From NCBI GenBank assembly GCA_930990125.1, contig CAKNOI010000004.1:1-64000 (forward strand): a stretch of 64,000 nucleotides of DNA, given 5' to 3'. Under the pieces are notes generated by a model. That model searched no databases and was not told where the DNA came from. It saw only the letters and a program-made list of their open reading frames with translations. Every line of letters begins with the position of its first letter. The stretch's first letter is position 1. Shown in pieces: positions 1,111-10,321 of this stretch. The stretch is from an uncultured Clostridiaceae bacterium (GTDB lineage Bacteria; Bacillota; Clostridia; TANB77; CAG-508). Made by a program: the position numbers and the translations under genes.

Positions 1111-1182
1111 TGTATTTTAAGAGCTAATATCTGGAAAATAATTGTATTTATAGTAATTTTATGATATAAATAAGAAAAATAT

Positions 1183-1211
1183 GAAATTTGCAACGCTCCG
1201 TTGCAAATTTC
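1183..1211. repeat. Perfect palindrome P1 before Nudix gene
   Basis: A perfect 13-bp inverted repeat, GAAATTTGCAACG and its complement, is separated by CTC. It ends 5 nt before the Shine-Dalgarno of the Nudix gene. It shares its outer AAATTTGC/GCAAATTT and its length with palindrome P3 (3021-3047), and its TTGCAAC core with P4 (7373-7391). There is no U-run after it, so an operator, mRNA hairpin or small repeat element fits better than a terminator. Confidence 0.75.
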
Positions 1212-1226
1212 AAAATGGAGAGAATT

Positions 1227-2650: not shown

Positions 2651-2685
2651 TATCAATTTTGCCAATACTATTGGCAAAATTGATA
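2651..2685. repeat. Perfect 17-bp-arm palindrome P2
   Basis: TATCAATTTTGCCAATA (2651-2667) is followed by one C and then its exact complement (2669-2685). The inner 27 bp match the palindrome inside the nuclease gene (3021-3047) at 22 of 27 positions. It lies about 65 nt upstream of the nuclease start. With a 1-nt centre it is a better candidate for a dimeric protein site or cruciform than for an efficient terminator. Confidence 0.8.
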
Positions 2686-2751
2686 AAAGTATTGATTAAA
2701 AAGCAAATTAAAAATTTTAATAATAAAAAAAGAAAGTGAGTGATATTATCT

Positions 2752-3789
2752 ATGCTAGAAAAAGATTTTAAGGATTTAATATTACAAGCTAAGCAAGATA
2801 TATTAGCAACACGATATAATGTAATGCAACATGCAAATAATGAACTTATAATGCTGTATTTTAGATTAGGAAAGATTATCAGTGAAAATGCTAGATATGG
2901 AAATCAATTCATCAAGATTTTTTCAACTTCGCTTAGGTTAGAATTTCCAAATACAGATGGCTTTTCAGAGAGAAACTTATCGAGAATGAAAAAATTTTAT
3001 GAAGAATATAAAGATTTATCAAATTTGCCAACAGCATTGGCAAATTTACCATGGTCTCATAATATGCTTTTATTAGAAAAAATAAAAGATTTTGAAATTA
3101 GAAAATGGTATGCCAATAAATGTTTAGAAAACGGATGGTCACATACAGTTTTGGAACACCAAATTGATTCTGGAGTTTATGAAAGACAAGTATTAGCAGA
3201 AAAATTAACAAATTTTAATGAAAAATTACCATTAACACAAAGTGAGCTTGCAAGAGATGTAATGAAAGACCCATATATTTTTGAATTAGAAGGAATAAAA
3301 GATGATTACATAGAAAAAGATATTGAAAATGCTATGTTAGAGAAGATAAAGAATGTCTTATTAGAATTAGGAAAAGGCTTTAGTTTTGTAGGTAGTCAAT
3401 ATAAAATATCAACTGAAAGTCAAGATTATTATATTGATTTATTGTTTTATCATTTGGAATTAAGATGCTATATTGTAGTTGAATTAAAAAATACAGAATT
3501 TAGGCCTGAATATACAGGACAACTTAGTTTTTATGTAACAGCTGTTGATGAAACAATAAAAAAGGAATATGATAATCAAACTATAGGATTATTACTTTGT
3601 AAAGGAAAAGATAAATTATCGGTAGAATGGTCTTTAAAGAGTACAAATGCTCCGATAGGTGTTTCATCATACAAAATTGCAAAAACATTACCAAAAGAAG
3701 TTTTGGAAAAATTACCTACTGAAGAAGAATTGAATATGTATATTATAACAGAAGAAGGAAATAAAATGGAAAAAAATGATAATAACTAG
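2752..3789 (+). CDS. DUF1016 / PDDEXK nuclease (YhcG-like)
   Basis: A 345-residue protein of the DUF1016 (YhcG) family: an N-terminal helical DUF1016_N domain (about residues 10-150) and a C-terminal PD-(D/E)xK nuclease domain. Catalytic-type residues are visible as D229 in YIDLLFYH and E244-x-K246 in VVELKN. The family is common on mobile elements and its cellular role is not settled. Length is normal. The ATG at 2752 is preferred; a GTG at 2740 in the same frame is possible. A palindrome (3021-3047) is embedded in frame and encodes the NLPTALANLP stretch before WSHN. The gene ends 8 nt before a large membrane-protein gene, so the nuclease leads a probable four-gene cassette running to 7315. 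Confidence 0.85.
   Translation: MLEKDFKDLILQAKQDILATRYNVMQHANNELIMLYFRLGKIISENARYGNQFIKIFSTSLRLEFPNTDGFSERNLSRMKKFYEEYKDLSNLPTALANLPWSHNMLLLEKIKDFEIRKWYANKCLENGWSHTVLEHQIDSGVYERQVLAEKLTNFNEKLPLTQSELARDVMKDPYIFELEGIKDDYIEKDIENAMLEKIKNVLLELGKGFSFVGSQYKISTESQDYYIDLLFYHLELRCYIVVELKNTEFRPEYTGQLSFYVTAVDETIKKEYDNQTIGLLLCKGKDKLSVEWSLKSTNAPIGVSSYKIAKTLPKEVLEKLPTEEELNMYIITEEGNKMEKNDNN
3021..3047. repeat. Palindrome P3 inside the nuclease gene
   Basis: AAATTTGCCAA, five nucleotides, then TTGGCAAATTT: a perfect 11-bp inverted repeat inside the coding frame. It is a near copy of P2 some 370 bp upstream. Confidence 0.75.
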
Positions 3790-3797
3790 AGGTAATT

Positions 3798-6068
3798 ATG
3801 GAATTTATTAAAAAAATAAGCAAATATATTGAGAATATAATTAATAAAATGAAAAAAATTTTAAGAAATATAAATAAACCAAGCTATACAAATCTTATTT
3901 ATATATCATATTTTTATCTTTTTGCTACAGTAATTTTAGTAATTATTTCTTTTATAATGAAAAGTTATAAAATAAAAATAAGTAATGACTTACCATTTAA
4001 CATATATTTGGCTTTATCAACTTTAATGATACCATTAGCTATATTTATTGCACAAAAAATTTCGGATAGCAAGGATTTTTTAACGGCAAATGTATATATG
4101 AATCAGTCTCATATATTTCCAATGACTATTTTTCAAATAGTTTCTTTTGTTTCATTATTTTATATACAAGATTATATTTACTATGGAATATTAATAATTA
4201 CATATGCAATATGCATTGCTTATTTGTATATAAATACATTAAGATTATTTTCTGATAGCATATACTTTACAAAAAAAATAAAAGAAGAAACTAAGAAGAT
4301 AATAAATCAAGCATTAAAAATTCATATTGACTCAAATGAAAACATTGCAAAAAATAAAAATCTTCCTAATTGTGGAATATATTTTGAAAACTATCATTAT
4401 GAAAATACAGATGATTATGAAAAAGTATATATATATCCACCATGTGATAATTTATTAATTAAAGAATTAAATAAAAAAGAGTTAAATAATTTAAAGAATA
4501 TAATGTCTCAAATAAATATAAAGATGGAAGATATAGGAGAAAATGAAGTAAATAATGAAATTCATATAAATAAAAAGAACATTATAATATTTTTACAAAG
4601 TGAAGGATATACCACAAGAACAAAAACACCTGTAATCAAAATTTTTTATAATAAAAATGATACAGATGTTATTGAAAAATTGATCTATATAAGAAATATA
4701 TTAGATAATTTATATAAATATGAAGATTATAATTTAGACATAGTTGTAAAAAAAGAGATTCAAGAAATTGAAAATAAATGTACAATATCAATATGTAATC
4801 ATTCAATAACTGAATTACAAAACAATCTAGAAGTATATGTGGATTTTTATAAAGCTATAGTTGACAATATAAATACTAGTATTGATAAGAATTATACTTT
4901 AGAAGAAGTATATAAATCAATTCATTCTTTTTATACCTTTAGAGGATTTAACTATTTTAAATACATTAGGGAAGAATTATATAATTTATGTTATCATCCA
5001 AATGCTTTAGAAAATAAAATTATATTTAATGAAATAACATCTTGTATATATCAAATGTTATTATACTCTTTTACACAGTATGAGTTAATTTCTTTTGAGT
5101 ATATGTCAGAAATGTATCAAAGTTTGTCATATATAGTAAATAAAAATGAAAAATTAGATATGAATAAAATACAACTAGAATTATTTGAGATTTTAAACTA
5201 TATATATTACGAATTGAAAAAAAGTAGTAATGAGAATTATAAAAATGCTAAAAACATGATGATATTACTAAATATTATTATTGTAAATATTATGTTTGAC
5301 TTAGCCTCTGAAGATGTTGAAAGATATGATATGTTTAGAAAAAAATTCACCAAATTTATTAGTAAGTTAGAACAAGATATAAAACAAATTAAAAGTCAGA
5401 AAAATATTTTAGATGCATTGCAAGAAATATTAATGCATTTCAGTAGTAATTTATATGCAATGGATTCATACCTCTTTGAGAAGAAGGAAAATAGGATAAA
5501 AGAAGAAATTATTCATTTTTATAACAATAAATCATTTAAATACATAATTTCTGCTTTTCTTAATGCACATAAATTAGATTTAGATAGTATTTATAATTGG
5601 GATAATTGGGAAGGATATGATATATTAAATGCTGAAGGGGCACATTTTGTTAAAACAAGTACATATATGAATGATTTATTTTGCAATATATGCCTTAAAC
5701 ATAATAATATAGAGTTACCAACAGATAGAGATTTAGTATCATTATATAATAGTAGCTTAAAAAATAAATTGTTTAGTTTAGGATGTAATGAAAATAGTAA
5801 TTTAATATTAAAATTTGAAGATATGCTACAAGAGTATGATGAGAATGGAAAAAAATATTTAAGAGAAACGAATATTAGTAAAGAAAAGGAAGCAGAGTTT
5901 AAGGAAAAATTTATACAATGTTATATTGATAATAATAATCTTTATAATCTAATGAAACAATATAATAATGTAAAAATCGTAAAACCAGCTAAACGGAGAA
6001 AAAAATTATTTAGGAATAAGCCAAATCTTAGAGAAAACATTCTTATTAGAAAAAATGCCAAACAATGA
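3798..6068 (+). CDS. Large orphan membrane protein, 4 TM
   Basis: A 756-residue protein that I do not recognise. The first 30 residues are basic. Four membrane segments follow, at roughly 32-54, 66-88, 106-125 and 127-145. About 600 residues of hydrophilic, Asn/Lys/Ile-rich, mostly helical-looking sequence then follow, probably cytoplasmic. No P-loop, nuclease or protease motif was seen. A GAGG Shine-Dalgarno-like sequence lies 9 nt before the ATG. The gene begins 8 nt after the DUF1016 nuclease and its 3' end overlaps the next gene by 14 nt, implying translational coupling. A nuclease coupled to a membrane protein with a big cytoplasmic sensor-like part resembles the logic of some defence islands, but that is only inference. 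Confidence 0.75.
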   Translation: MEFIKKISKYIENIINKMKKILRNINKPSYTNLIYISYFYLFATVILVIISFIMKSYKIKISNDLPFNIYLALSTLMIPLAIFIAQKISDSKDFLTANVYMNQSHIFPMTIFQIVSFVSLFYIQDYIYYGILIITYAICIAYLYINTLRLFSDSIYFTKKIKEETKKIINQALKIHIDSNENIAKNKNLPNCGIYFENYHYENTDDYEKVYIYPPCDNLLIKELNKKELNNLKNIMSQINIKMEDIGENEVNNEIHINKKNIIIFLQSEGYTTRTKTPVIKIFYNKNDTDVIEKLIYIRNILDNLYKYEDYNLDIVVKKEIQEIENKCTISICNHSITELQNNLEVYVDFYKAIVDNINTSIDKNYTLEEVYKSIHSFYTFRGFNYFKYIREELYNLCYHPNALENKIIFNEITSCIYQMLLYSFTQYELISFEYMSEMYQSLSYIVNKNEKLDMNKIQLELFEILNYIYYELKKSSNENYKNAKNMMILLNIIIVNIMFDLASEDVERYDMFRKKFTKFISKLEQDIKQIKSQKNILDALQEILMHFSSNLYAMDSYLFEKKENRIKEEIIHFYNNKSFKYIISAFLNAHKLDLDSIYNWDNWEGYDILNAEGAHFVKTSTYMNDLFCNICLKHNNIELPTDRDLVSLYNSSLKNKLFSLGCNENSNLILKFEDMLQEYDENGKKYLRETNISKEKEAEFKEKFIQCYIDNNNLYNLMKQYNNVKIVKPAKRRKKLFRNKPNLRENILIRKNAKQ

Positions 6069-6654
6069 AAATATTATTTTTTCAGGTTTTGAGTCAAATT
6101 TTGTACAGAGTTTTATAAATGGTGAAGAGAAGAGGTATGTAAAAGATATTTTAAAAAAATTACCTAATGCAAACAGTAAGATTATAGAATTTCTAAGCAA
6201 TATGAAAGATATTGAGCAAGTTATAATATTAGCTAATTATAGTTTTGAGTATAATTTATATGATACAATAAATTTAAAATATGAATATATGCAAGATTAT
6301 AAAAGTATTGATAAAAATAATAATTTGTATATTCTTCATAATGACGTATTAATACCAGTTTATCAAATAAGGGGACTAGATAATAGCTGTTTTTATATTT
6401 TGAATATAAATAAAATGGGAAAATTTTGCAGAGATAAGGATACGGATTTTTTTGATATCCAAGTGTTTGAATATTCTAGTGATACTCAACATCTACAAGA
6501 AGCAATGAATAAAAAAATTAATGGTTGCGAATTAGAAGGAGACGAAAAAAGAAAACATTTACTGGAGTCTGTTAATTTGGTAATTAGAGAATATGTTAAA
6601 TTTGAAGATAATGAAGTAAAAGGTTATAAATTATTTTATAATAATACAAAATAG
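6055..6654 (+). CDS. Orphan protein coupled to membrane protein
   Basis: A 199-residue soluble protein with no domain that I recognise and no signal peptide or membrane segment. Its ATG lies inside the last codons of the upstream membrane-protein gene (14-nt overlap) and has no clear ribosome site of its own, so translation probably depends on the upstream gene. The sequence is acidic-aromatic in the middle, with a Cys near residues 106, 123 and 157. Composition and strand match the cassette. It may be a partner of the membrane protein. Confidence that it is a real gene is good; function is unknown. Confidence 0.65.
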   Translation: MPNNENIIFSGFESNFVQSFINGEEKRYVKDILKKLPNANSKIIEFLSNMKDIEQVIILANYSFEYNLYDTINLKYEYMQDYKSIDKNNNLYILHNDVLIPVYQIRGLDNSCFYILNINKMGKFCRDKDTDFFDIQVFEYSSDTQHLQEAMNKKINGCELEGDEKRKHLLESVNLVIREYVKFEDNEVKGYKLFYNNTK

Positions 6655-6679
6655 AAAATAAAATAATAGGAGGAAATTT

Positions 6680-7315
6680 ATGGATTTAAAAGCTAATTTT
6701 ATAATGGAGCATTATAAAAAATTGATAGAAAATAGAGAATTTGATGAATTTGATATATTAGGTTTTTTAATATTTATAAGAAGTTTTATTAAGCCAAACA
6801 AACAATATCCATTGATTGAAGAATTTGCAGATTTAGTAGCTCACAGGGAGAGGGAGAAAGGAAAAGTAATGGAATGTATAAAGAATGCAATAGATAATAA
6901 TTATTCGTATATTTCTAATAGCAAAAGGATACAAGGATATTGTGGGATAAATGAAAATGATTGGAAGAATGAGTGGATTAAGTTCGGAAATGTATTTAAT
7001 ATATTAATTAATGATGATATATTAAAAGAAATAACACTATGCATATTCTCATTAGCACAAAAAACTATTTACAACGATAAGAAGGGACATAATGGAATGA
7101 TTGAATTTGATGCTGTTAGTAAAAGTGGAGAAATAGCCTTATTGACAACTGAAGGAAGGAAAGATAGCATATTTATTTGTTTTGCCAAATATGGAGAATA
7201 TATTATTGATACAAAATATGACGGTGTTCCAATTACAGAGATTGTATCTACATTTAGAGATAATGGAAAATTAAAATTAAAAGATAGGCTTAATAATATT
7301 ATTTTAGAGGTCTAA
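6680..7315 (+). CDS. Orphan protein, end of DUF1016 cassette
   Basis: A 211-residue soluble protein without a recognised domain. It has a strong AGGAGG site 8 nt before the ATG and lies 25 nt after the previous gene. The N-terminal part (about 1-60) reads as amphipathic helices with a charged HREREK patch. The C-terminal part reads as alternating strands (IALLTTEGRKDSIFICF). It appears to be the last gene of the nuclease-membrane-orphan cassette, since a palindrome and a gap of about 100 nt separate it from the cupin gene. Confidence 0.65.
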   Translation: MDLKANFIMEHYKKLIENREFDEFDILGFLIFIRSFIKPNKQYPLIEEFADLVAHREREKGKVMECIKNAIDNNYSYISNSKRIQGYCGINENDWKNEWIKFGNVFNILINDDILKEITLCIFSLAQKTIYNDKKGHNGMIEFDAVSKSGEIALLTTEGRKDSIFICFAKYGEYIIDTKYDGVPITEIVSTFRDNGKLKLKDRLNNIILEV

Positions 7316-7372
7316 AATATAAATTGGCAAACAAGAGATTATAATGAATTTAACTATAAACATATATAAAAA

Positions 7373-7391
7373 TTGCAACATTATGTTGCAA
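7373..7391. repeat. Palindrome P4 before cupin gene
   Basis: TTGCAACA, TTA, TGTTGCAA: an 8-bp perfect inverted repeat ending 24 nt before the cupin start codon. It shares the TTGCAAC core with P1. A leader hairpin or operator is possible. Confidence 0.55.
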
Positions 7392-7415
7392 AATTAGAAG
7401 AGGAGATAATAAAAA

Positions 7416-7760
7416 ATGGAAATTATTAAATATGATAATGCTTTAAAAGGAAAGAATAGTGCCAAGTGTAAAACGTTGGAGTATTCATTTAATGATAAAG
7501 AAATAGATTTAGGTATAGCAACAATTAATGGGAGATATCCTGATAAAGGATATGGAGTAAATCTTGTAAGTAAAGAATTAATATATGTTATAGAAGGTAA
7601 AGGCACATTAAATTTTGAAAATAAAAGGATTGAATTTTCAAAGGGAGATTCTATTTTAATAGAACCTAATGAAAAATATTACTATGATACTAATTACTGT
7701 ATAGTATCTATGACCTGTACACCAGCATGGTTACCTGAGCAACATAAGTTAGTAGATTAA
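7416..7760 (+). CDS. Small cupin-fold protein
   Basis: A 114-residue single-domain protein with the cupin beta-barrel pattern. The segment KELIYVIEGKGTLNFENK (about 50-67) corresponds to the first conserved cupin motif, and FSKGDSILIEPNEKYYY (about 71-87) to the second. The metal-binding His residues usual in motif 1 are missing or replaced, so metal binding and enzymatic activity are uncertain; a binding or isomerase role is possible. A GAGGAG site precedes the ATG. It heads a tight same-strand run with a flavodoxin, a metallo-hydrolase and a methyltransferase, suggesting one small-molecule pathway. Confidence 0.75.
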   Translation: MEIIKYDNALKGKNSAKCKTLEYSFNDKEIDLGIATINGRYPDKGYGVNLVSKELIYVIEGKGTLNFENKRIEFSKGDSILIEPNEKYYYDTNYCIVSMTCTPAWLPEQHKLVD

Positions 7761-7781
7761 AAATATGAAAGTGAGTTAAAA

Positions 7782-8354
7782 ATGAAAGTATTAATATTAA
7801 GTTTCAGTAGTAATCAAGTAAACGAAGATAGTTTTATACCAAATAAAATAGGATTAACTTTTTCTTGTGTGGAAGAAAGTGAGAAAGAATTAAAAAAATT
7901 AGGTAATGATGTAGAACATATTTGTATTAATAGAAAGAATATTCAGAAATGTTTAGCTTGTGGTAAAAGAGGATGGGGTATATGTTTGGATAAACATATA
8001 TGCATTCAAAAAGATGATTTTAATGAAATTTATAAACATATGGGAGATTTTGATGCTTATGTATTTATTACACCAGTTTATTTTCATGAAATGAGTGAGT
8101 CAGCAAAAACATTTTTTGATAGATTAAAAAGATGTGATGCATTCAATGATGAATCAAAAATAAAAGGAAAGAAAATAGTGTGTATCGCTTGTGCAGGAGG
8201 AAGTGGTAGTGGAACAGAAGAAACACTAAAAGCATTTGATACATTAAATTATTTTTTAGGAACGAAAATGTATGCAAGAATACCTGTAACAAAAGCAAAT
8301 TTTGAAAAACAAAGAAAAGTTATAGAGAATGCAATGAAATTGGAGGATAATTGA
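7782..8354 (+). CDS. Flavodoxin-fold reductase with Cys cluster
   Basis: A 190-residue NADPH-dependent FMN-reductase/flavodoxin-type protein. The N-terminal VLILSFSSN segment, which would bind FMN phosphate, is followed by C57-L-A-C60, C68 and C74, in the place where iron-sulfur flavoproteins and related reductases carry their Cys cluster. VFITPVYFHEMSESAKTFFDR (written here in parts: VFITPVYF, then SAKTFFDR) is the flavin-side loop and helix of the family. Whether the four Cys bind a cluster or form disulfides cannot be told. It ends 1 nt before the next gene and is probably co-translated with it. The role would be electron transfer to a partner or quinone/nitro-type reduction. Confidence 0.75.
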   Translation: MKVLILSFSSNQVNEDSFIPNKIGLTFSCVEESEKELKKLGNDVEHICINRKNIQKCLACGKRGWGICLDKHICIQKDDFNEIYKHMGDFDAYVFITPVYFHEMSESAKTFFDRLKRCDAFNDESKIKGKKIVCIACAGGSGSGTEETLKAFDTLNYFLGTKMYARIPVTKANFEKQRKVIENAMKLEDN

Positions 8355-8355
8355 T

Positions 8356-9162
8356 ATGGAAAAATTAAACATATTAGGAACAGGTCATGCAATGACATTA
8401 GATTGTTATAATACTTGCTTTACATTAGAGAATAATGAAGGAGAACATATATTAGTAGATACAGGTGGAGGACTACAAATAATAAAACAATTAAGGGATG
8501 CAAAGATAGATTTTAGAAAAATACATAATATTATTTTATCACATAAACATACAGATCATATATTAGGAATGTTTTGGATTATAAGATATGCACAAAAGTT
8601 TTTTGACAATAATAATTATGATGGAAATCTAAATGTTTATATGCATAAAGAATTAGAAAGTACAATTAGAAAAATAATGTTTGAAGTATTGCCAAAAAAA
8701 TTTACAAAACTTATAGATAACAGAATTATTTTTAATATAGTAGAGGATAAAGAAGAAATAAAAATACTAAATTATAATATTAAATTTTTAGATGTTCAAG
8801 CAAAAAAAGATAGACAATTTGGTTTTAAAACTACATTAGCAAATGGAAAAACATTTGTATTTTTAGGTGATGAAACATTTGATGAAAAATTAAGAGATGA
8901 AGTAGAAAATGCAGACTGGTTATTACATGAAGCAATGTGTATGGATTCAGAGGCAGATATATTTAAACCATACGAAAAAATGCATTCTACTGTAAAAACA
9001 GCATCAGAAATAGCAATGAGTTTAAATGTTAAAAATTTAGTATTATATCATGCAAGTGATAACGATTTAGAAAACAGAAAAAAGTTATACACAGAAGAGG
9101 CAAAACAATACTTTAAAGGAAATATATATGTACCAGATGATTTAGATGTTATTGAATTATAG
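8356..9162 (+). CDS. RNase Z-like metallo-beta-lactamase hydrolase
   Basis: A 268-residue metallo-beta-lactamase-fold hydrolase. The zinc motif is H63-K-H65-T-D67-H68. Further ligands are the Asp of FLGDETF and a late His in LVLYHAS. The HST of EKMHSTVKTA and the HEAMC stretch resemble the tRNase Z (ElaC) arrangement, but there is no clear flexible-arm exosite and the gene sits in a cargo cassette, so a tRNA substrate is not assured. A small-molecule esterase, lactonase or phosphodiesterase role is equally possible. It starts 1 nt after the flavodoxin gene with GGAGG just upstream, and is followed after 15 nt by a methyltransferase. Confidence 0.75.
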   Translation: MEKLNILGTGHAMTLDCYNTCFTLENNEGEHILVDTGGGLQIIKQLRDAKIDFRKIHNIILSHKHTDHILGMFWIIRYAQKFFDNNNYDGNLNVYMHKELESTIRKIMFEVLPKKFTKLIDNRIIFNIVEDKEEIKILNYNIKFLDVQAKKDRQFGFKTTLANGKTFVFLGDETFDEKLRDEVENADWLLHEAMCMDSEADIFKPYEKMHSTVKTASEIAMSLNVKNLVLYHASDNDLENRKKLYTEEAKQYFKGNIYVPDDLDVIEL

Positions 9163-9177
9163 AAAGAGGAAAAAATT

Positions 9178-10002
9178 ATGTTAGACAATTTTGAAAGCAT
9201 TAGTCCAACGGCAATTGTAACTGCATATCCTAGACAATTTACAGACATACCTTATGAAAAGCAAATATATGAATGGTTAAAGGCAAATTGTAAAAATAAT
9301 GATGTGAAATTGAATAAATTATTAGCACCAGAAATAGAAGCAAGGTATAAACTAACTAATAAAATACTAAATGATTTAAATATAAAGCAGATAGTTGAAA
9401 TTGCAGCTGGTTATTCTTCAAGAGGTATAATATATGCTCAAAAAGGATATGAGTATATTGAAATGGACTTAGAAGAAGTCACTAGAAATAAGATTAGATT
9501 ACTAAAAGATATTGCTAATATTCCTAACACTTTACATATAACAAGTGGTAATGCATTAAACTATGCAGATTTCGAAAAATGTAGTAAATTTCTTGATAAA
9601 AATAAAGAAGTAGCAATAATAAATGAAGGATTACTTAGATACCTAACTTTTGAAGAAAAAAAGATTGTTGCAAAAAATATTTATAATGTATTAAAGAAAT
9701 ATAACGGAGTATGGATTACTTGTGATGTCACACCTAAAAAGTTCATAGAAAAGCAAAATGAATGCTTACCAGATTTTAATAATAACTTAAATCAAGTTAC
9801 CTCAAGAAATGATTTACAAGATAGATTTGATGATATAGAACATATAAAATCATTTATGATGAAAATAGGATTTAAAAATATAGAGATTCATAGATTTATT
9901 GAAATGAAAGAACAGTTAAAATCGTTTGAAATATTGGGTGTTGCGAAAGAAGAATATGACGAATTATTAGAAAATGCTATAGTAGCGATTATTAAAATAT
10001 AA
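9178..10002 (+). CDS. SAM methyltransferase, LCM family
   Basis: A 274-residue class I SAM-dependent methyltransferase resembling the leucine-carboxyl-methyltransferase-type O-methyltransferases (LCM, PF04072). The early SPTAIVTAYPR stretch is typical of that family. The SAM loop is VEIAAGYSSRG with E74-x3-G78. YIEMDLEEV carries the acidic residue that would contact the ribose. AIINEGLLRYL is the motif IV/V region. A GAAAGAGG site precedes the ATG. It is the last gene of the cupin-flavodoxin-hydrolase-methyltransferase run and the last clear accessory gene. The acceptor is unknown: a carboxylate or hydroxyl of a small molecule or protein is expected from the family. Confidence 0.8.
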   Translation: MLDNFESISPTAIVTAYPRQFTDIPYEKQIYEWLKANCKNNDVKLNKLLAPEIEARYKLTNKILNDLNIKQIVEIAAGYSSRGIIYAQKGYEYIEMDLEEVTRNKIRLLKDIANIPNTLHITSGNALNYADFEKCSKFLDKNKEVAIINEGLLRYLTFEEKKIVAKNIYNVLKKYNGVWITCDVTPKKFIEKQNECLPDFNNNLNQVTSRNDLQDRFDDIEHIKSFMMKIGFKNIEIHRFIEMKEQLKSFEILGVAKEEYDELLENAIVAIIKI

Positions 10003-10321
10003 ACTTTTCAAAAACTATTGTAAATCTTAAAGATTTATGTTAAATTATAAACAACAGTTGTAGCAAAAAATTGCCAACTTGTACATATAATTCTTGCAAT
10101 ATATTGCTATAACTACATTTGAAACGGAAATAAGTAGCTTTTTTGCGATAGGCTTTTCGAAAACGTCTCTCGCAAAGGAGCCAGAAAAATAGCAGATAAG
10201 AAATTATCTGTTATTTTTTTATAAAATTTTTTTATAAATTTCTAAAAATAAATTAAACTTTTTTTAGTCGTAAATCATCTAATAAGTGTAACAAAAGATA
10301 ATACAAAAAATGAACAAATAA
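10003..10321. other. Gene-free junction with stacked hairpins
   Basis: No coding frame is convincing here. GCGA-T-AGGC (from 10145) pairs with GTCT-C-TCGC around a TTTTCGAAAA centre, giving an interrupted hairpin at about 10145-10172. It is followed by AAAGGAGCC and a true terminator at 10188-10220. The stretch is locally richer in G+C than its flanks, which suggests a structured RNA 3' end or a leader. It also lies where accessory cargo gives way to chromosomal-looking genes, so an element end could be here. No riboswitch family was recognised with confidence. A TGTAAC at 10287-10292 could be an ECF-type -35. Confidence 0.45.
10188..10220 (+). terminator. Rho-independent terminator
   Basis: AATAGCAGATAA and TTATCTGTTATT pair over 12 bp with one G-U and a GAAA tetraloop, followed by a long T-run. 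Confidence 0.85.

Follow-up and report, generated by a model that had tools for sequence, protein, structure and literature searches.

Defence slots, or hotspots, in which a constant backbone carries swapped anti-phage modules occur in P2/P4-like phages, SXT-type ICEs and PICIs. The element described here appears to share that arrangement, differing in that it is probably a TnpV/serine-recombinase mobilizable element, where swapping would take place at the 3′ terminus of a nuclease gene and at palindrome-bearing junctions. The nuclease belongs to the DUF1016/YhcG family (COG4804, PF17761 + PF06250; PDC-S02), members of which are common in defence loci and in type I R-M operons; it shares with them the full-length domain match and the PD-(D/E)XK motif, and is distinguished by its apparent place at the head of a mobilizable element's exchangeable defence slot. 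Thoeris, Gabija, CBASS, Pycsar, Tmn and DUF4297-HerA are found directly after DUF1016 genes in relatives, mostly in the same slot (Pycsar outside the element), and the three orphan proteins of the present locus match none of them. Homing endonuclease genes occur at boundaries of genetic exchange (PMC10448857), and the DUF1016 gene likewise lies at the edge of exchanged DNA; it differs in its PD-(D/E)XK fold and in the target-like palindrome carried inside its own frame and intact beside the gene, whereas insertion of a homing gene destroys its target site. With REP palindromes and their RAYT transposases (PMC2817692) it shares palindromes that flank the gene and vary in type with the gene subfamily, but the protein is a PD-(D/E)XK nuclease and not a Y1/HUH transposase, a palindrome also lies within the ORF, and the pattern is known at loci, not as genome-wide dispersal.

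The window, that is, the whole 64,000-nucleotide stretch that was analysed, forms the left part of a contig of 71.9 kb, in a genome of 1.38 Mb. Genes were called as the longest ORF, and neighbourhoods were taken from draft genomes. The window begins at the contig end inside a MobA/VirD2-type relaxase gene, of which the C-terminal part is present (30-1073, + strand; PF03432, 1.8e-16; frame open to the contig start). The relaxase was 79-93% identical in amino acid sequence to those of complete sister elements, in which the order is serine recombinase, TnpV, NikA-like protein, relaxase and cargo (the large serine recombinase, TnpV and NikA-like protein being present in sisters L127 and L081). An older cargo module of NUDIX-like and HAD genes follows (1230-2598, + strand; NUDIX weak, E 0.03; HAD_2, 2.8e-12), and this pair recurs in sister L188 at 80-81% amino acid identity. 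Behind the four genes of interest lies shared cargo comprising cupin, FMN reductase, metallo-beta-lactamase-fold and methyltransferase genes (7416-10002, + strand; 89-97% amino acid identity in L127, L111, L124, L113 and L125), followed at the element's right end by a conserved non-coding segment (10005-10225, with a hairpin at 10185-10218), which recurs in about 25 sister loci at 70-94% nucleotide identity, the longest matches stopping at 10219-10225. Because the relaxase matches complete elements and the conserved right end is shared, the cassette lies inside a mobilizable element, and its four genes are read as cargo of an integrative mobilizable element. The right end was also considered as a known structured RNA, for which Rfam gave zero matches. 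The metallo-beta-lactamase-fold gene (8356-9162) shows 92-97% identity between elements from different genera and stands close behind the defence module in several of them, with a weak, sub-cut-off similarity to Apyc1 (E 0.011). A second element type (L172-L187) has a different backbone, and its relaxase, related at about 70%, precedes a 274-aa gene.

The four genes lie on the + strand at 2740/2752-3789, 3798-6068, 6055-6654 and 6680-7315, with intergenic spacings of 8 nt, −14 nt and 25 nt. The leading gene (2740-3789; alternative start ATG 2752) encodes the DUF1016/YhcG nuclease and is the constant leader of the slot described below. Its product matched the Pfam profiles DUF1016_N (9.4e-40) and YhcG_C (4.9e-60) with bit scores of 136 and 202 against cut-offs of about 33, and PADLOC PDC-S02 at 5.1e-125. 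The active-site D...E-x-K is present as D233 and E248-x-K250 counted from GTG 2740. No solved structure of a relative was found. The closest nuclease, at 94% amino acid identity, was that of locus L013 in genome G168; a close sibling (L073, 76%) lies outside the element and is followed 10 nt later by a Pycsar cyclase gene (5.3e-42).

The second gene (3798-6068) encodes a 756-aa protein with hydrophobic, predicted transmembrane segments at residues 36, 67, 105 and 127, all within the first 150 residues, followed by a soluble part of about 600 residues; its GC content is 20%, whereas core genes to the right have about 33%. The third (6055-6654) overlaps it by 14 nt and encodes a soluble protein of 199 aa, and the fourth (6680-7315), preceded by a strong Shine-Dalgarno sequence (aggagg), encodes a soluble protein of 211 aa. 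The three proteins gave zero significant matches in Pfam, NCBIfam, PADLOC, PHROGs and PDB sequences, and none to the PADLOC models (PADLOC-DB, 2023 version) even at E ≤ 1. No intact relative of the 756-aa protein was found in about 640 whole genomes (56 relatives, 191 of the order and 398 of the phylum), no intact relative of the 199-aa protein beyond chance in the 191 genomes of the order, and none of the 211-aa protein beyond chance in the 398 genomes of the phylum. Searches with tblastn in plasmids (all three proteins) and phages (756 and 211 aa), and scans of genomes (756 aa) and viral contigs (all three), gave none, or chance matches only. Candidate homologues of the 211-aa protein in L008 and L010 were rejected, being GNAT-like acetyltransferases by inspection. 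Modelled with AlphaFold2 from their single sequences, the 756- and 211-aa proteins reached a pLDDT of 39-40, too poor for comparison.

At the level of gene content the original prediction stood up well: four same-strand genes with the spacing given above, D229 and E244-x-K246 in the nuclease (reproduced with ATG 2752 as start), a 756-residue protein with four membrane segments and some 600 residues after them, three orphans without a family, and an accessory location, here specified as cargo of a mobilizable element. The array had been said to follow a relaxase, which is real, but the NUDIX-like and HAD genes intervene before the nuclease; and the start given for it, position 2651, falls in a perfect palindrome (2650-2686) outside the nuclease ORF.

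For the survey of the position behind DUF1016, DUF1016 neighbourhoods were mapped across the taxonomic order, and as a reverse test elements were located by their relaxase alone. Directly behind DUF1016 were found Tmn (L127, 7.9e-96, with a homologue in L124), Gabija GajA/GajB (L114 and L171), both genes of Thoeris, ThsA/ThsB (L163), a CBASS cyclase with a 2TM effector (L113), DUF4297-HerA (L166), PDC-S06 (L170), PDC-M49A (L196) and TPR-CSD with RnlA/RnlB (L081); L115 and L125 had no recognised defence gene tightly behind DUF1016. PADLOC recognised a known or candidate defence gene immediately behind DUF1016 at 10 of the 17 element loci, compared with 4 of 72 loci outside the element (Fisher p 2.7e-6; the sequences are related and not independent, so that this p-value overstates the evidence). 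In the relaxase-anchored survey the next gene was PADLOC-positive in seven of nine elements with DUF1016 and in three of ten without (p 0.07, a small sample). The window orphans occupy this same location, and their putative defence role is supported by position, since they fill the slot that holds known anti-phage systems in sisters; metabolic genes lie in the same cargo region, and position is therefore no proof of defence. Our main reading, to which we assign a probability of roughly 0.6, is that the four genes are cargo of the mobilizable element with a DUF1016-led exchangeable slot, in which the orphans form a three-gene anti-phage module. On this evidence the orphans are a good candidate for an anti-phage module that has not been described.

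Comparison of sister elements located the borders of the exchanged DNA. Sisters were 86-95% similar from the relaxase side through DUF1016, and where the modules differ the similarity broke off 0-17 nt short of the gene's end; L111 was an exception, at 83% similarity extending up to 30 nt past it. Near-identical DUF1016 genes preceded different modules in L163/L194/L196 (93-95% nucleotide identity), L124/L171 (91.8%) and L113/L166/L116 (90-94%). At the relaxase-cargo junction of the window (1180-1214) lies a palindrome of GCAAC type, TATGAAATTTGCAACGCTCCGTTGCAAATTTCAAA, identical to L113:2217-2251 directly before the L113 DUF1016 gene. The right border of the module (7363-7410) contains another palindrome of GCAAC type (7373-7391), flanked by sequence similar to the relaxase junction; this border segment was 74% identical to window 1179-1225, and 7363-7430 was 100% identical to L111:573-506, which precedes the cupin gene of L111 behind a different module. 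The relaxase-junction segment with its palindrome is repeated behind the module in L127, L177, L190, L116, L111 and the window. In L127 the copy is a 210-bp direct repeat around the cargo, consisting of the relaxase 3′ end and palindrome on the other side of the DUF1016-Tmn module (9159-8940 and 4185-3976). Within the window TTGCAACN5GTTGCAA with up to two mismatches occurred five times against 0.22 expected. The DUF1016 gene would act as a constant leader behind which whole anti-phage modules are swapped, the breakpoints falling at its stop codon or just ahead of it and at the palindrome-bearing junctions. The 756-199-211 set would be the current occupant of the slot and, most likely, a three-gene anti-phage system not described before.

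Palindromes were also found in and beside the nuclease gene itself. A perfect palindrome of GCCAA type, TTATCAATTTTGCCAATACTATTGGCAAAATTGATAA, lies upstream (2650-2686), and its type matches that of an in-frame palindrome within the gene, AAATTTGCCAACAGCATTGGCAAATTT (3021-3047; GCCAA...TTGGC type), the centre of which lies 12 nt before PW codons. Pairing was scored at positions fixed relative to the centre, hexamers touching the loop having proved uninformative. Among 75 DUF1016 genes scored (L013-L171), 59 had in-gene palindromes at p ≤ 0.02 against synonymous-codon shuffles; the mean score at the fixed place was 8.9 against 3.6 elsewhere in the same genes, and the centre lay exactly 12 nt before P/S-W codons in 59 of 63. 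The in-gene sequence varied by subfamily, some subfamilies having none, and in-gene palindromes were likewise present in DUF1016 genes from several phyla (L198-L209), with plasmid genes from several phyla included. A palindrome of the same type lay within 500 nt of the gene at 17 of 63 loci, against 11 of 680 (1.6%) for other types (p 7e-13, again overstated by the relatedness of the sequences). Codon use was rejected as the source of the palindromes on the basis of the synonymous shuffles and of an identical 27-mer in non-coding E. coli DNA. No earlier description of palindromes in DUF1016 genes was found in the open-access full text that was covered, so earlier reports may have been missed.

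The E. coli yhcG gene has strong in-gene palindromes of its own sequence. In the one yhcG-less strain examined, the unoccupied allele has, between gltD and nanQ, a palindrome that matches the gene in type, AATTCGCCAGACAGTGTCTGGCGAATT; in a yhcG-bearing strain the gene is inserted beside that spot and contains the identical 27-mer. The E. coli palindromes lie at L214:2957-2983, L211:1031-1057, L198:4130-4237 and L198:4971-4995. In K-12, yhcG contains three palindromes and is followed by one more past its stop codon, and alleles differ in their palindromes. In L170 (12101-12842) the DUF1016 gene is without its N-terminal third, upstream sequence being joined directly at the in-gene palindrome, and the DNA between the junction and in-gene palindromes is gone, as if deleted.

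This pattern suggests a homing- or REP-like nuclease, and one rival explanation, a tentative one, holds that the nuclease is a selfish enzyme of homing-like or REP/RAYT-like kind which would recognise palindromes and drive insertion and exchange, its place before defence genes reflecting the cut site and no role in defence. The fixed codon position of the in-gene palindromes, the same-type copies nearby, the occupied and empty gltD-nanQ sites, the loss in L170 of the DNA between its two palindromes and the coincidence of breakpoints with palindromes and the gene's end all speak for it. On the other side, the palindromes are intact in the very element that encodes the nuclease, the junction palindrome of L124, L127 and L171 differs in type from the in-gene one, the pairing of palindromes would also follow from autoregulation by binding or an RNA hairpin, and homologous recombination alone could produce the breakpoints. 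Recognition of the palindromes by DUF1016 proteins may accordingly be entertained at odds well short of even. The broader proposal, that DUF1016/YhcG proteins are widespread palindrome-specific nucleases, each with its own in-frame site, often a border copy and insertion beside palindromes, which would serve as a swap point for anti-phage modules and would have delivered 756-199-211 in this way, is doubtful. On the main reading, the nuclease is likely to act on DNA on its own, serving as a restriction-like defence in its own right or driving exchange at its palindromes.

A second rival concerns the orphans, which could serve another accessory function (maintenance, toxin-antitoxin, or surface- or transfer-related) and not be anti-phage. 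They resemble no defence protein, the adjacent cargo is metabolic (cupin, FMN reductase, HAD, methyltransferase), and sister L185, which is without DUF1016, has apparent ABC transporters after the relaxase (by inspection); the recognisable gene after DUF1016 in these elements is nevertheless nearly always one of defence, and we consider this alternative unlikely.

The array has a counterpart in L013/G168, a different genus of the same family, which carries a decayed, mostly deleted version. Nucleotide similarity extends from the nuclease over the opening ~160 bases of the 756-aa gene and resumes at the 3′ end of the 199-aa gene and again downstream of the 211-aa gene; everything else is deleted and the orphan reading frames are broken. 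Because similarity resumes past the nuclease across orphan remnants, the array, judged from these alignments, was once present in this second genome, and the nuclease and orphans stood together there before decay. Between the window and L013 the nuclease had a dN/dS of 0.11, indicating purifying selection; its start-codon region in L013 has a small deletion, so the nuclease there may have begun to decay recently. That all four genes form one dedicated system, with the nuclease as effector licensed by the membrane and two soluble proteins once these sense infection, is quite improbable: the spacing, the adjacency of nuclease and orphans in the L013 ancestor and the embedding of DUF1016 genes elsewhere in type I R-M operons agree with it, but the same nuclease subfamilies precede complete Gabija, Thoeris, CBASS and Tmn, which need no extra nuclease, the L013 nuclease was kept under selection while the orphans eroded, and at most DUF1016 loci outside the element no gene follows in tight linkage. 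The original prediction of an anti-phage or element-stabilising module is thus upheld for the likely role of the orphans, through their slot position, and is not supported for the nuclease-orphan unit: DUF1016 genes more than 90% identical precede unrelated modules elsewhere, and the nuclease, as the slot's constant gene, is related to the orphans as to cargo and not as a dedicated partner.

Under the main reading, an exchangeable slot filled by a three-gene anti-phage module, we infer that the orphans are defensive and act together through a membrane effector. The 756-aa component would be anchored in the membrane by its four helices, with its large part in the cytoplasm; the other two proteins would be its partners in the cytoplasm, and one of them probably senses infection. 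The 756-aa protein would then damage or depolarise the membrane, or nucleate a complex there. The membrane-based mechanism is weakly suggested by this architecture.

If the orphans are defensive, three protein families without a known relative join the anti-phage repertoire, found by position and not by similarity. The in-gene palindromes, for their part, suggest a recognition target for a large, poorly understood nuclease family and a route by which defence modules are shuffled. The slot further offers a search rule, namely to inspect any gene after DUF1016 in these elements, and if the rule holds, the occupants of five annotated slots that PADLOC did not recognise are also candidates. These are DUF4062 with a phosphoesterase (L111:902-2947), a HATPase with DUF4325 and an unknown protein (L116:6019-7957), three small uncharacterised proteins (L194:3168-4243), and single unknown genes of 365 and 351 aa behind DUF1016 (L079:9090-10297 and L077:4620-5687, respectively), the last two being candidate defence genes with GCCAC-type palindromes on both borders.
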